Origin: Flavobacterium sp. ENC
Lineage (GTDB): Bacteria > Bacteroidota > Bacteroidia > Flavobacteriales > Flavobacteriaceae
Assembly (NCBI RefSeq): GCF_020991415.1
Contig: NZ_JAJMOY010000008.1
Location: forward strand, 1-64,000
Length of the DNA: 64,000 nucleotides
Direction: 5' to 3'
The position numbers were made by a program, and so were the translations under genes. The first letter of the stretch is position 1. Every line of letters begins with the position of its first letter. Below are positions 13,732-49,665 of the stretch, in pieces. The notes beneath the pieces were generated by a model that made no database searches, had not been told where the DNA came from, and saw only the letters and a list, made by a program, of their open reading frames with translations.

Positions 13732-14131
13732 GAATAATCTAAATAATAAGATCGTAAAAATAAGTAATAATTCTACAAGAGCTTAAAAATAAAGGAAATA
13801 TTTATGATTTATATGGGCATGACCCGCCGAAAAAAGCGGGTCGGGCTATCCACTATATCTTTTGTGGCTAACAATAGCAACGGGCATTGCCACAAAAGGA
13901 TGCCGTTATTATCCCTCATGCAACTCTGTTTTTCATAACAAATTCGAAGTGAATTGGATTTATTTAAAGTTTCAAAAAAGTTATTTTAGCGGAAGAAATA
14001 ATCTCGCAAAGACGCAAAGGCGCAAAGCTTTATATTATCTACAGATTAAAAAAATCTGCCCAATCTGCAAAATCTGCGTGAGACAAAAAAGCTTTTCGTC
14101 TTTACCAAGAAATTCCAACCAAACAAAATTT
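13732..14131. other. Non-coding spacer with dispersed repeats
   Basis: Four hundred bp without a convincing gene. It holds a GACCCGC/GCGGGTC hairpin (13821-13842) and a degenerate copy of the GCTATCC...GGATGCCG repeat (13843-13919). It also has a CGCAAAGACGCAAAGGCGC repeat (14001-14030) and AATCTGC word repeats. The last 130 bp are duplicated near 15743-15875. Confidence 0.6.
13821..13919 (-). repeat. Dispersed repeat, GGATGCCG family, degenerate copy
   Basis: Contains GCTATCCACTATATCTTTT and later CACAAAAGGATGCCGTTATT. Both blocks are found in the same order at 46788-46862. The reverse complement of the second block matches the GATGGAAGTGGAAACC motifs at 331-358 and 479-505. A hairpin GACCCGC/GCGGGTC precedes it. 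Confidence 0.55.
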
Positions 14132-44806: not shown

Positions 44807-45889
44807 TTAGGCATTGAAAATTTTTTCCTGGTGCCCAATACTTTCCTGGTGAATGGCTTTGAACATTCTCAAAACGAACTCTTCCGTAAGTCCTTTTTTC
44901 TCGCCTTCCAAAATCATTTTTCCTAAGATTTCGTTCCAACGGTTGTTTTGAAGAATGGCAACGTTGGCGTCTTTTTTCACCTGACCAATTTCGTCCGCTA
45001 CCTTCATACGTTTTCCTAATAACTCTAATAAGTTAGCATCCAAAACATCGATGTTAGCTCTTAGTTTCGTCATTTTAGAAGTGTACTGATCTGTCGTATC
45101 ATCCGTTTTTCTGATCGTCAGATCTTTGATGATTTGTTTAAGGGCATCCGGAGTAACTTGTTGCGCAGCATCCGACCAGGCGTTGTCCGGATCGTAATGT
45201 GTTTCGATGATCATACCATCGTAGTTCAAATCCAAAGCTTCCTGCGTTACTTCGAAAATCATTTTACGATCTCCTGTAATATGGGAAGGATCTATGATTA
45301 ATGGTAAATCAGGGAATTTATTCTGCAATTCGATTGCAATCTGCCATTCCGGGATATTTCTGTATTTTGTTTTTTCGTAAGTAGAGAAACCTCTGTGAAT
45401 AACTCCCAATTTCTCGATTCCGGCCATGTGTAAACGTTCTACACCACCTAACCATAAAGCCAAATCAGGGTTTACAGGGTTTTTAACCAAAACGATTTTA
45501 TCTGTTCCTTTCAAAGTATCCGCAATTTCCTGAACGGCGAACGGGTTTGCAGTCGTACGCGCACCCACCCATAAAACGTCGATATCATGTTCTAAAGCCA
45601 GTTTACAGTGTGCTGCAGTCGCAACTTCAGTACCCATCAATAAACCAGTTTCTTTTTTAGCTTTTTGTAACCATTTCAAACCAATTTCTCCAACACCTTC
45701 AAATCCTCCCGGACGCGTTCTTGGTTTCCATATTCCGGCTCTGAACACACTTACTTTTGAATCTTTCAACTCATGAGCGATTTTCAAAACCTGATCTTCC
45801 GTTTCTGCACTACATGGTCCGGCTATCACAAGTGGGTGATTTAAATTGAAATCCTCTAACCACTTTCTCATTTCTTTCTTATTTTCCAT
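44807..45889 (-). CDS. Bifunctional DAHP synthase / chorismate mutase
   Basis: A 360-residue fusion acting at both the entry to the shikimate pathway and the branch to phenylalanine and tyrosine. Residues 1-260 form a KDO8P-like DAHP synthase: LVIAGPCSAETEDQVLKIA, FRAGIWKPRTRPGGFEG, VLWVGARTTANPFAVQEIAD, LVKNPVNPDL and IIDPSHITGDR. Residues about 268-350 form an AroQ-type chorismate mutase (LRANIDVLDANLLELLGKRMKVADEIGQVKK). Last gene of the pheA operon. Confidence 0.95.
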   Translation of the reverse strand: MENKKEMRKWLEDFNLNHPLVIAGPCSAETEDQVLKIAHELKDSKVSVFRAGIWKPRTRPGGFEGVGEIGLKWLQKAKKETGLLMGTEVATAAHCKLALEHDIDVLWVGARTTANPFAVQEIADTLKGTDKIVLVKNPVNPDLALWLGGVERLHMAGIEKLGVIHRGFSTYEKTKYRNIPEWQIAIELQNKFPDLPLIIDPSHITGDRKMIFEVTQEALDLNYDGMIIETHYDPDNAWSDAAQQVTPDALKQIIKDLTIRKTDDTTDQYTSKMTKLRANIDVLDANLLELLGKRMKVADEIGQVKKDANVAILQNNRWNEILGKMILEGEKKGLTEEFVLRMFKAIHQESIGHQEKIFNA

Positions 45890-45907: not shown

Positions 45908-46765
45908 TTATTTTTTAATTGTTAATCCGTTTAATATCTCTTTAATTTTATTCGTGCTTTCCATTTCTTCAAAAATGGCATTGTAATTTTCTTCTTTTAA
46001 CAAATCCCTAAACCGACTGAGGTTTGAAATATATTCTTCTAATGTTTCAATGACATGTTCTTTGTTTTGCTTAAAAATCGGTGTCCACATGGCTGGCGAA
46101 CTCTTTGCTAAACGAACGGTGCTTTCGAAACCACTTCCCGCCATATCAAAAATATCCTGTTCGTCTTTTTCTTTGTTCATTACCGTTTTTCCGAGCATAA
46201 AGGAACTAATGTGCGACAAATGCGAAACGTAAGCAATGTGTTTGTCGTGTGAAGTCGGATCCATATATCGAATCCGCATTCCGATTTCGCTAAAAAGCTT
46301 CAATGCCTTTTCCTGCAATTTGAAAGTGGTTTTTTCCACCTCACAAATAATATTCGTTTTCCCCTGAAACAATCCTTTTATCGCTGCCGATGGTCCGGAA
46401 AATTCTGTTCCTGCAATGGGATGCGTTGCGATAAAATTTCTTCTTTTCGGGTGACCCGCCACTGCATCACAAATCGGTTTTTTAGTAGATCCCACTTCAA
46501 AAACAATGGTTTTATCACCTACCGAATCCAGTACTTTTGGCAAAATGGTCAGGGCAACATCTACGGGAACCGAAACAATCACAAAATCAGCTTCAGCCAA
46601 TGCTTCGAAACTTCCAGCCTGATCAATAACACCTAAATCAATCGCTTCCTGCAAATGTTTTTCGTTACTGTCTATTCCAAAAATAGTCGCGTCCGGATGT
46701 TTTTCTTTGATGTCCAGCACCATCGATCCGCCTATTAACCCTATTCCTATTACGTATACTTTCAT
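45908..46765 (-). CDS. tyrA: Prephenate dehydrogenase
   Basis: A 285-residue NAD(P)-dependent enzyme that converts prephenate to hydroxyphenylpyruvate for tyrosine. The Rossmann motif is VIGIGLIGGSMVLDI. The conserved THPIAGTEFSGPSAA block and the helical C-terminal dimer part are present, with the HVSH-type motif seen as YVSHLSHISSFMLG. There is no ACT domain. It overlaps neither neighbour and follows the aminotransferase gene in the operon. Confidence 0.93.
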   Translation of the reverse strand: MKVYVIGIGLIGGSMVLDIKEKHPDATIFGIDSNEKHLQEAIDLGVIDQAGSFEALAEADFVIVSVPVDVALTILPKVLDSVGDKTIVFEVGSTKKPICDAVAGHPKRRNFIATHPIAGTEFSGPSAAIKGLFQGKTNIICEVEKTTFKLQEKALKLFSEIGMRIRYMDPTSHDKHIAYVSHLSHISSFMLGKTVMNKEKDEQDIFDMAGSGFESTVRLAKSSPAMWTPIFKQNKEHVIETLEEYISNLSRFRDLLKEENYNAIFEEMESTNKIKEILNGLTIKK

Positions 46766-46787
46766 ATTTATTTTTATTAGAAGCTAT

Positions 46788-46862
46788 TTCCTGCTATCCG
46801 CTATATCTTTTCCGCCGAAACCCGGCACAAAAGGATGCCGCTTCTATCAGGGCTAGGGCTTC
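46788..46862 (-). repeat. Dispersed repeat, GGATGCCG family
   Basis: Contains GCTATCCGCTATATCTTTT and CACAAAAGGATGCCGCTTCT, then CAGGGCTAGGGC. Related copies are at 13821-13919 and, as the second block reversed, at 331-358 and 479-505. Confidence 0.6.
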
Positions 46863-46994: not shown

Positions 46995-48140
46995 CTAAAA
47001 CCTATCTATCGCTTCCTGTACTTTTTCTTCTTTCACACACAACGAGAATCTGATGTATCCTTCCCCATTGCTTCCGAAGATGGTTCCCGGTGTAATGAAA
47101 ATATGTTTCTCGTATAATATTTCGTCAATGAACTTTTCTGCCGATTCGATTCCTTCCGGCAATTTCGCCCAGACAAAAAGTCCTACTCCCTCTTTATACA
47201 CTTTGCAGCCTAATTTTTCGGCTAATTTTTCTGTTAATTCTCTACGGCGTCTGTAAATTTTGTTTTGGTCTTCGAACCAGGATTTGTCACAATTCAAAGC
47301 CGCGATTGCCCCTTTCTGAATTCCGTAGAACATGCCGCTGTCCATATTGCTTTTTACTTTCAGGACTGCATCGATAATTTCAGGTTTCCCTAAAACCATT
47401 CCGACTCTCCAGCCGGCCATGTTGAACGTTTTGCTTAATGAATTCAGTTCTAAAGCCACTTCTTTTGCCCCTTCCACCTGCAATAAACTCATCGGATTAT
47501 CATTCAGAACAAAACTATACGGATTATCATTTACCAGTAATATGTTGTGTTTTTTAGCAAAGGCAACCAATTTTTCAAATAACGCTAAACTTCCTCTGGC
47601 TCCTGTTGGCATGTGCGGATAACCCAGCCACATGATTTTTACTTTCGATAGATCCAGTTTTTCCAAAGCTTCGAAATCCGGTTCCCAGGCATTGGCTTCT
47701 TTCAGATCATAATAAACCGGAACCGCTCCTACCAGATTAGTTACCGAAGTATAGGTCGGATAACCCGGATTCGGAATTAAAACGTGATCATCTTCATTTA
47801 GAAATGCCAGTGAAATGTGCATAATTCCTTCTTTCGAACCCATCAGCGGCAAAATCTCATTATTCGGATTCAACACAACACCAAACTGATCCTGATAAAA
47901 ATCGGCCATTCCCTTTCTCAATTCCGGTAATCCCTGATAACTCTGATACCCATGCCCGTTTTCATCCAGAATTGCCGCAGCTACTGCTTCAATTACTGCT
48001 TTTGACGGACTCAAATCAGGGCTTCCGATTCCCATGTTGATGATCGATTTTCCTTCAGACTGCAGTTGACGCACTTCTCTCAATTTCGAGGAGAAGTAAT
48101 ATTCTTCAACTGTATCTAATCTTTTTGCTGTTGTAATCAT
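46995..48140 (-). CDS. PLP-dependent aminotransferase (class I/II, aromatic operon)
   Basis: A 381-residue fold-type I aminotransferase. The PLP lysine is Lys237 in ELNSLSKTFNMAGWRVG, with the NPGYPTYTSV block and the final YIRFSLCV arginine motif. It lies between pheA and tyrA, so it is probably the phenylalanine/tyrosine (or prephenate) aminotransferase of this operon; the sequence alone does not fix substrate. Palindromic elements lie on both sides. Confidence 0.88.
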   Translation of the reverse strand: MITTAKRLDTVEEYYFSSKLREVRQLQSEGKSIINMGIGSPDLSPSKAVIEAVAAAILDENGHGYQSYQGLPELRKGMADFYQDQFGVVLNPNNEILPLMGSKEGIMHISLAFLNEDDHVLIPNPGYPTYTSVTNLVGAVPVYYDLKEANAWEPDFEALEKLDLSKVKIMWLGYPHMPTGARGSLALFEKLVAFAKKHNILLVNDNPYSFVLNDNPMSLLQVEGAKEVALELNSLSKTFNMAGWRVGMVLGKPEIIDAVLKVKSNMDSGMFYGIQKGAIAALNCDKSWFEDQNKIYRRRRELTEKLAEKLGCKVYKEGVGLFVWAKLPEGIESAEKFIDEILYEKHIFITPGTIFGSNGEGYIRFSLCVKEEKVQEAIDRF

Positions 48141-48331: not shown

Positions 48332-49159
48332 CTACGGTTTTGTATTCTTATATTCTCCCAGAACTTTTAAATATTCTGCCATAATATTCAGTAATGCTTT
48401 GGCTTTTGCAAAGTCTTCGTATTTCTCGAATGTTACATCTACGAAAAACGAATATTTCCAGGGGGTCTCAATTTTTGGAAGCGACTGGATTTTTGTTAAA
48501 TTCAGTTTGCAATCGCTCATGACATTGAGGACCGCCGCTAAACTTCCTCTTTTATGGTCCAGTTCAAACTTGATCGAAGCCCTGTTGATTTCGGTTTCAG
48601 GTAAAAATGAATTCTGTTTTTTAATAATCACGAAACGGGTCATGTTATTTTTGATCGTCTGAATTTCCGGTGCCAGAATTTCCAAATCATACATTTCAGA
48701 AGCCGTTTTACTCGCAATGGCAGCGATTCCGGTTAACTGTTTTTCCTGGATTCTTCTGGCGGTTTCGGCTGTATCTTTATCTTCAACCAATTTGATGTTT
48801 GGATATTTTTTTAAGAAATCCATACATTGCAACAGTGCCATCGGATGCGAATGAACTTCTTTTATATCCTCCATTTTCTGACCTTTCAGGGCCATTAAAT
48901 TTTGGTGAATGCTAAGGTAATGTTCTCCGATAATGTGCAGATTATTCTTGTCGATCAACGCATAATTCGGGATAATTGGCCCTGCAATCGAGTTTTCAAT
49001 TGCCATTACCGCCTGATCCGATTTTCCGGAAAGCAGGCTGTCAATTAATTCTTCAAAGGACAAACACTCATCAATAGCCACATTTTCAGAGAAATACTCC
49101 TTTACGACCTGATGGTGGAAAGAACCTTTTATACCTTGTATTGCAATTTTCGTTGTCAT
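48332..49159 (-). CDS. pheA: Prephenate dehydratase
   Basis: A 275-residue enzyme that converts prephenate to phenylpyruvate for phenylalanine. The opening is IAIQGIKGSFHHQVVKEYF. The conserved region includes SIAGPIIPNYALI and the TRF motif in NNMTRFVIIKK. An ACT regulatory domain spans about 193-270, starting KFELDHKRGSLAAVLNVM. Its ligand motif reads QSLP where many homologues have ESRP. It is the first gene of the operon and directly preceded by a terminator-like hairpin that may be an attenuator. Confidence 0.94.
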   Translation of the reverse strand: MTTKIAIQGIKGSFHHQVVKEYFSENVAIDECLSFEELIDSLLSGKSDQAVMAIENSIAGPIIPNYALIDKNNLHIIGEHYLSIHQNLMALKGQKMEDIKEVHSHPMALLQCMDFLKKYPNIKLVEDKDTAETARRIQEKQLTGIAAIASKTASEMYDLEILAPEIQTIKNNMTRFVIIKKQNSFLPETEINRASIKFELDHKRGSLAAVLNVMSDCKLNLTKIQSLPKIETPWKYSFFVDVTFEKYEDFAKAKALLNIMAEYLKVLGEYKNTKP

Positions 49160-49165
49160 ATATTC

Positions 49166-49196
49166 AAAAAAAAATCCTGATTTTCATCAGGATTGT
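49166..49196 (-). terminator. Terminator-like hairpin abutting the pheA start codon
   Basis: On the minus strand: AATCCTGA, loop TGAAAA, TCAGGATT, then seven more T, ending 6 bp before the pheA ATG at 49159. Its 5' arm (ACAATCCT) is perfectly complementary to AGGATTGT at 49243-49250, a possible antiterminator. See the attenuator finding. Confidence 0.8.
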
Positions 49197-49297
49197 ATAT
49201 TAGTTTTATTTGTCTTTTTTAATTTTCTCAAATAACCATAGCACAATCCTTACTTCTACTAAAGAAGAAATAAAAAGAGTTGCTAAAATAAAAACGG

Positions 49298-49381
49298 TTA
49301 TTGGACATTTTGTTTGTGTTTTTCAATAAATTCTCTGCGAATGTATAAATTATTTTCACTGCACCAAAAAAAATATTGCAT
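49298..49381 (-). CDS. Candidate aromatic leader peptide (Tyr-Phe-Phe-Trp)
   Basis: A 27-codon frame, ATG at 49379-49381, beginning MQYFFWC and ending at TAA 49298-49300, located upstream of pheA. Four consecutive aromatic residues (Tyr, Phe, Phe, Trp) right after the start are what a leader peptide for aromatic amino acid control would show. A terminator hairpin lies just before pheA. The same frame is open further upstream to 49504, so the short start is a choice, and no promoter is certain. An alternative is a broken small membrane protein gene whose 3' part lies in another frame. Confidence 0.4.
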   Translation of the reverse strand: MQYFFWCSENNLYIRREFIEKHKQNVQ

Positions 49382-49665
49382 TTTATGAAACAAAAAAGAA
49401 TTTCTTAACAAATTACCTGCCTTTTGTAGGATATATGAATAAATCGGCCTTAAAATGCGATTTAGGCAATTGGCTTTGAAGGAGCTGCTTAGATTCTGAG
49501 GCACTAAGGTTATGAGAGCCTAACTATATGCTTACTCTTTTGGACCAATTTTTAGGAGAGCGGGAAGTATGAAAAAACAAAAAAAGCAGCTATCATTACA
49601 ATAACTGCTTTTACTTTAAGAATAAATCTATTCTCTATAATCTATTTTCTTTATTCTAAAAAGAA

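Follow-up and report, generated by a model that had tools for sequence, protein, structure and literature searches.

The window analyzed here is a stretch of 64,000 nucleotides (nt) from Flavobacterium sp. ENC (contig NZ_JAJMOY010000008.1 of assembly GCF_020991415.1), and the element in question is a putative transcription attenuator in front of pheA, on the minus strand. Downstream of nrdA, the minus-strand order is pheA, an aminotransferase gene, tyrA and a gene for DAHP synthase fused to chorismate mutase. The pheA gene (48332-49159) encodes prephenate dehydratase (PF00800, E 9.6e-59, with the ACT domain under its cut-off); the second gene (46995-48140) encodes a class I/II aminotransferase, tyrA (45908-46765) encodes prephenate dehydrogenase, and the fusion gene occupies 44807-45889. 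The set from pheA to the fusion gene is presumed to be an operon for Phe and Tyr synthesis, headed by pheA and probably read from a shared transcript. Because nrdA has a terminator-like hairpin of its own at 49612-49582, the pheA leader looks like a separate unit.

The leader region contains a small ATG frame at 49308-49228 (minus strand), MSNNRFYFSNSFYFFFSRSKDCAMVI, with 26 codons followed by TGA, in which eight Phe and Tyr codons fall within eleven: Phe-Tyr-Phe at codons 6-8 (49285-49293) and Phe-Tyr-Phe-Phe-Phe at codons 12-16 (49261-49275). As in leader-peptide attenuators, this is a short open reading frame rich in codons for the end products of the operon, and it is kept in relatives. 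An earlier inspection of the letters alone (hereafter, the sequence-only reading) had overlooked this frame and assigned the sensing role to another one, the 27-codon frame MQYFFWCSENNLYIRREFIEKHKQNVQ (MQYFFWC..., 49381-49298), which is indeed present with its start at 49381.

The comparison with relatives involved several sets of loci. The named loci are the best 80 of 316 relatives, nearly all labelled Flavobacterium. To span identities, 120 distant loci were picked by hand: 60 of the same genus, out of 143 matching genomes, and 60 of other genera in the family, out of 138. An alignment of 82 rows (A1, built with MAFFT) covers 82 non-redundant representatives, 80 of which were scored for the antiterminator. 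In the wider set of 230 loci, the leader was found in 207, and 16 of the 23 misses are loci in the wrong orientation (17 of the 29 loci L082-L110 were misoriented); the counts over 207 loci include L088, a spurious leader from the wrong orientation that lacks a terminator and is absent from the 82 representatives.

When the upstream regions of relatives were examined for the MQYFFWC frame, as the sequence-only reading had advised, at least three early aromatic residues were found in 86 of the 117 loci of the NRFYFSN type (type A), compared with only 4 of the 90 loci of other types. Thus, many close relatives keep this frame, and the genus shows good conservation of the DNA surrounding its start; nevertheless, MQYFFWC is almost certainly not the sensing peptide, given its rarity outside the NRFYFSN type, the promoter-like pair of elements that its codons overlie, and the position of its YFFW codons, where a ribosome would be more than 100 nt from the antiterminator arm denoted strand 2 and would leave the hairpin 1:2 described below untouched. 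Judging from the sequences, the frame at 49308-49228 is the likely true leader.

The putative promoter consists of a -33 element TTTTTTTTGG (49364-49373), overlain by the YFFW codons, and, 18 nt away, a -7 element TACATTCG (49338-49345) that resembles TAnnTTTG. We take TTTTTTTTGG to be a flavobacterial -33 element; 56 distinct type-A sequences keep it as a block with constant spacing. The T-run and TATACATTCG show strong conservation across these close sequences, the stretch just upstream of the MQYFFWC ATG is well conserved too, and the ATG itself and the Tyr codon vary more. The reported flavobacterial -7 consensus is TAnnTTTG at -12 to -5 (PMC9723704), and a TAnnTT(T/C)G box lies 182-198 nt upstream of pheA in all 80 named loci; the scan of the wider loci for this box was lenient (5 of 6 fixed positions, without a null) and has a supporting role only. 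The promoter geometry makes transcription likely to start near 49333, and because MQYFFWC overlaps a promoter of the flavobacterial type, its YFFW codons probably precede the transcription start.

Terminator and antiterminator before pheA

The attenuator-like arrangement that the sequence-only reading had described before pheA is present, with its terminator and antiterminator where they had been placed. The intrinsic terminator (49166-49194), supported by covariation, consists of a stem at 49194-49173 and a T-run at 49172-49166 and ends 6 nt before the pheA ATG (49159). Its 5' arm, strand 3 (ACAATCCT, 49189-49196), is complementary to strand 2 (AGGATTGT, 49243-49250), which lies inside the leader codons for KDC, so that strand 3 doubles as the 3' arm of the antiterminator and strand 2 is its 5' arm. 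Strand 2 is itself contained in part in hairpin 1:2 (49247-49276), where UUUUUAUUUCU (49276-49266), composed of Phe and Tyr codons, is predicted to pair with AGAAGUAAGGA (49257-49247); the fold, including the lower stem, has an energy of -12.6 kcal/mol. The mean probability of pairing between strand 2 and leader codons exceeds 0.5 in 71 of the 80 scored representatives, in accord with the predicted role of this hairpin as a protector. A further complementarity that had been pointed out, AATAACC (49302-49296) with GGTTATT (49237-49231), exists in the window, but is not kept in the family alignment, and was rejected as a core part of the switch.

A terminator separates the leader from the first gene in 205 of the 207 loci; one of the two misses is L088, and the finder chose the wrong hairpin in at least one locus (L181). 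The covariation that the sequence-only reading had proposed to look for is found in both helices, for the antiterminator with the reservations set out below. Over the 82 loci of alignment A1, 8 of the 9 terminator (3:4) pairs have changes in both partners; 95.7% of the cells are paired, and the covariation is 0.408 against 0.212 in shuffled alignments. The antiterminator (2:3) is changed on both sides at 7 of 8 pairs, with a covariation of 0.272 against 0.216, a value reached by none of 500 shuffles. In an alignment-free swap test, the 2:3 helix scores 17.3 with the arms of the same species and 12.4 with arms taken from other species (maximum 13.8 in 2000 permutations), and the helix is over the threshold in 80 of the 82 representatives compared to 11% of shuffles. 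Most Flavobacterium loci have the arms GGGATT/AATCCC or AGGATT/AATCCT; the arms of other genera are GGGACT/AGTCCC and CGAGAC/GTCTCG, and strand 4 varies along with them. A consensus fold computed from the 82 aligned rows recovered the terminator alone, which is usual for alternating structures.

These co-changes bear on two other possibilities, that the hairpin merely terminates an upstream unit and that the leader affects pheA through translational reinitiation. The leader is indeed short and lies near pheA, and for many bacteria, Bacteroidetes among them, leader genes have been proposed to work by reinitiation (PMC4833913). We nevertheless regard either variant as extremely unlikely: nrdA, the gene upstream, already has its terminator-like hairpin, the gap between the leader stop and the pheA start is 68 nt as opposed to a peak at 11-14 bp for Bacteroidetes (PMC4833913), and reinitiation leaves the co-changing of the 2:3 helix between species unexplained.

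Conservation of the leader in the family and the class

The frame MxxNRFYFSN(S/N)FYFFFSRS... is found in all 80 named loci. Among the distant loci of the same genus, 55 of 60 have an aromatic-rich leader when any common start codon is allowed. The five that lack one in the 500 nt before the match (L163-L167) encode pheA proteins only 42-49% identical to that of the window, which suggests that pheA has been replaced or relocated in these genomes. With ATG starts only, at least six aromatic residues in ten codons were found in 113 of the 120 distant loci and in 4.2% of 12,000 dinucleotide shuffles. The distant leaders differ in peptide sequence (for example, MTKQYFWNGFYFYFFFKRSTGLF and MKTTNFTYYNWFYFFFSGRNETLYV), in codons and in length, and retain the aromatic cluster. 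Both Phe and Tyr codons are present in all 82 representatives and Trp codons, which the window leader lacks, in 55 of them; both synonymous codons are used for Phe (TTT 275, TTC 179) and for Tyr (TAT 204, TAC 54). At one aligned leader codon, covered by 18 loci, TGG occurs 8 times, TAT 5, TTT 4 and TTC once (Trp 8, Phe 5, Tyr 5), so that the residue stays aromatic although the codon differs.

The retention of aromatic residues across the family, while codons, peptide sequences and lengths change, also speaks against a structured RNA that senses something else (a riboswitch, a protein-binding attenuator or a T-box), with the Phe/Tyr frame being incidental. The leader nucleotides are almost invariant within the genus, as such an RNA would have it, but in an Rfam scan neither a T-box nor a riboswitch reached its gathering score in the window, and none appeared at E <= 1 in 49100-49450, where the only matches at E <= 1 were patAB and Phe_leader, both far below the cut-off. 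We therefore consider this alternative very unlikely.

Beyond the family, a prephenate dehydratase protein was detected in 33 of 119 sampled genomes of the class Bacteroidia. Of the corresponding loci, 30 were read and 27 placed, 23 of these outside the family, and an aromatic-rich leader lies near pheA in 14 of the 23; among the nine others, two (G427 and G452) have the leader some 3.5 kb upstream of pheA, ahead of the DAHP synthase gene, and seven showed none. A covariance model (R1) whose structure is the terminator only scored 99.3 bits at pheA in the genome of the window, with the next match at 39.3. Many weak class-level matches are partial and cover the 3' part of the model, that is, they are terminator-like, and for this reason chiefly the matches of at least 43.8 bits were read, a cut set after seeing the list. 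Among these 22 matches, 19 are aromatic leaders, located before pheA (17) or DAHP synthase (2), the gene names being assigned by eye from the initial residues; 4 of the 19 belong to the family of the window and are in or near the training set of the model, and 15 are outside the family. Of the remaining three matches, L285 lacks such a leader, L302 is a terminator only, and L301 (G414, minus strand, from another family of the class) has a Thr/Ile leader, MIFNTSIITTIIITTGINQRG, and a hairpin with a T-run ahead of a gene that by eye resembles aspartokinase. Among the lower matches that were read, L298 (41.5 bits) is an aromatic leader before pheA, and L269, L291-L293, L296 and L297 are not.

Ribosome position and the proposed mechanism

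The sequence-only reading had worried that the geometry was not classical, with the aromatic codons well before the pairing region. With the leader at 49308, this concern disappears: the antiterminator begins just downstream of the regulatory codons, and in the window 10 nt separate the end of the last Phe codon from strand 2. This distance ranges from 4 to 16 nt among the 80 scored representatives and is 10-11 nt in 60 of them, which is about where a stalled ribosome would end. With a ribosome at the stop codon, its assumed footprint would reach strand 2 in 74 of the 80. Eleven relatives with a leader that closes directly behind the aromatic residues (FYFFFRK and a stop, and similar forms) were inspected, and strand 2 persists at or just past the stop in all of them. 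These early-stop leaders (L116, L118, L122-L124, L126, L128, L130-L132 and L134) constitute a natural experiment that separates the peptide from the RNA element.

The leader was also folded, as had been suggested, in a stall model in which the RNA ahead of the ribosome is folded for each codon before strand 4 is made, with an assumed footprint size. In the window, the modeled probability of the 2:3 helix stays at 0.93-0.98 through the fourth FYFFF codon and is 0.87 at the last Phe codon, and past the aromatic codons it falls to 0.44 at the next Ser, to 0.02 and then to 0; with the ribosome on aromatic codons, it averages 0.97 over the 80 representatives. The switch point of the model is thus the last Phe codon, as in classical attenuation.

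The observed anatomy, conservation, compensatory changes and spacing, together with this model, point with high probability to a ribosome-mediated leader-peptide transcription attenuator of the Phe/Tyr operon. We infer translation of the leader, stalling of the ribosome and a response to Phe and Tyr, in the following scheme. RNA polymerase would start near 49333, and a ribosome would begin the 26-codon leader at 49308. With charged Phe- or Tyr-tRNA in short supply, the ribosome would stall in FYF-SNS-FYFFF, open hairpin 1:2 and expose, directly in front of it, strand 2, which would then pair with strand 3, block the terminator and permit transcription of pheA, the aminotransferase gene, tyrA and the DAHP synthase-chorismate mutase gene. 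With Phe and Tyr plentiful, the ribosome would reach the stop codon and cover strand 2, strands 3 and 4 would pair, and transcription would end 6 nt before pheA.

Several observations weigh against this interpretation. For the 2:3 helix, two of five covariation measures are within the range of the shuffles (139/500 and 83/500), the paired cells amount to 76.6% against 73.0% after shuffling, and sliding the 3' arm by +1 yields a similar score (0.256 compared to 0.272). We ascribe the last similarity to the MAFFT alignment, in which strand 2 of the CGAGAC class is out of register by one base; this blurs the alignment counts for 2:3, a problem that does not affect the alignment-free swap test. 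In the folding calculations, the antiterminator is poorly suppressed without a ribosome (0.47 in the window and 0.66 on average, with values below 0.5 in 25 of the 80 representatives), the zero at the stop codon arises by construction, only the RNA ahead of the ribosome being folded, and base composition accounts for much of the 1:2 pairing (an average of 0.74, compared to 0.50 after shuffling of the codon region). In 112 loci of the NRFYFSN type (29 distinct sequences), the Phe/Tyr codons are nearly constant at each codon position, and because of this, selection on the peptide and on the RNA is inseparable inside the genus and the case for peptide selection rests on the wider family. Finally, a limited search of the literature turned up no experiment on whether transcription and translation are coupled in Flavobacterium, nor one for the phylum Bacteroidota.

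For a broader reading of the attenuator we see roughly even prospects: one leader would sense Phe, Tyr and Trp together, would be ancient in Bacteroidia, would follow the first gene of the operon when the gene order changes, and would need close coupling of transcription and translation. The three-aromatic part of this reading draws on the 55 representatives with Phe, Tyr and Trp codons and on the codon swapping among the three, and it matches the gene set because DAHP synthase is the entry step for all three amino acids. The system also offers a natural test of close ribosome-polymerase coupling in Bacteroidota, and the likely sensor is now reassigned to a different small gene.

Comparison with known systems

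Structured 5' elements have been reported in F. psychrophilum before pheA and hisG, present in other genera of Flavobacteriaceae and without an Rfam match, along with strong clues for leader-peptide attenuation before amino-acid operons (PMC9723704, 2021). The pheA element of F. psychrophilum precedes the same gene in the same family and probably is the same element as that in the window; the portion of the text considered here gives no peptide, pairing scheme or mechanism for pheA, so that the scheme above offers a testable mechanism for an element listed in that transcriptome study without one (PMC9723704). Short open reading frames reminiscent of leader peptides have been described in Bacteroides, in an article where the word pheA does not occur (PMC7366714), and Bacteroid-trp and a pheA motif of Actinobacteria have been listed elsewhere (PMC2864571). 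The general principle is not new, and the pheA attenuator is perhaps partly known already. A 2010 survey of amino-acid operon attenuation by Lopatovskaya and colleagues may already list such cases.

Other leaders of the same genome allow a closer comparison. Upstream of a trpE-like gene (C23, L262), the Trp leader MRTILNNTWWWKNLRQTS matches Bacteroid-trp (RF01692) at 76.9 bits. Like the pheA leader, Bacteroid-trp is a leader-peptide RNA of the same phylum, but it carries Trp codons and precedes the trp operon; there is no match to RF01692 in the window (gathering score 49 bits), and the pheA leader is not a member of that family. Upstream of hisG (C12, L261), there is a His-rich leader, MISIQLHHHHFHYCSQAMC, and upstream of ilvD (C12, L264), an Ile/Val leader, MMQISIIITSVVVVNVFSTSASGMV, each followed by a hairpin and a T-run; both resemble the pheA leader in plan and differ from it in the amino acids and operons concerned. 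At three homoserine dehydrogenase loci, no leader was seen in the fetched flanks, which may not reach the gene starts. Taken with the Trp, His and Ile/Val leaders, the pheA leader suggests that amino-acid operons of such bacteria are commonly controlled by attenuation of the textbook kind.

The window also contains two matches to Flavo-1 RNA (RF01705), both on the minus strand, one at 46783-46858 (73.4 bits), between the aminotransferase gene and tyrA and hence inside the Phe/Tyr gene set, and the other at 13835-13926 (49.6 bits). The genome also has a second gene of the DAHP synthase family, which could be KDO8P synthase.

Among the closest known counterparts is the E. coli pheL-pheA system (RF01859, Phe_leader), which likewise has an aromatic-codon leader, a terminator and an antiterminator before pheA and, to judge by the anatomy, works in the same way. 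The window leader is not a member of the Rfam family, scoring 18.9 bits (E 0.94) against a gathering score of 55. The E. coli leader is Phe-rich and has no Tyr or Trp, in contrast to the flavobacterial leaders, which mix Phe and Tyr codons, in many cases with Trp codons as well (55 of 82 representatives), and stand before a Phe/Tyr/DAHP synthase gene set.
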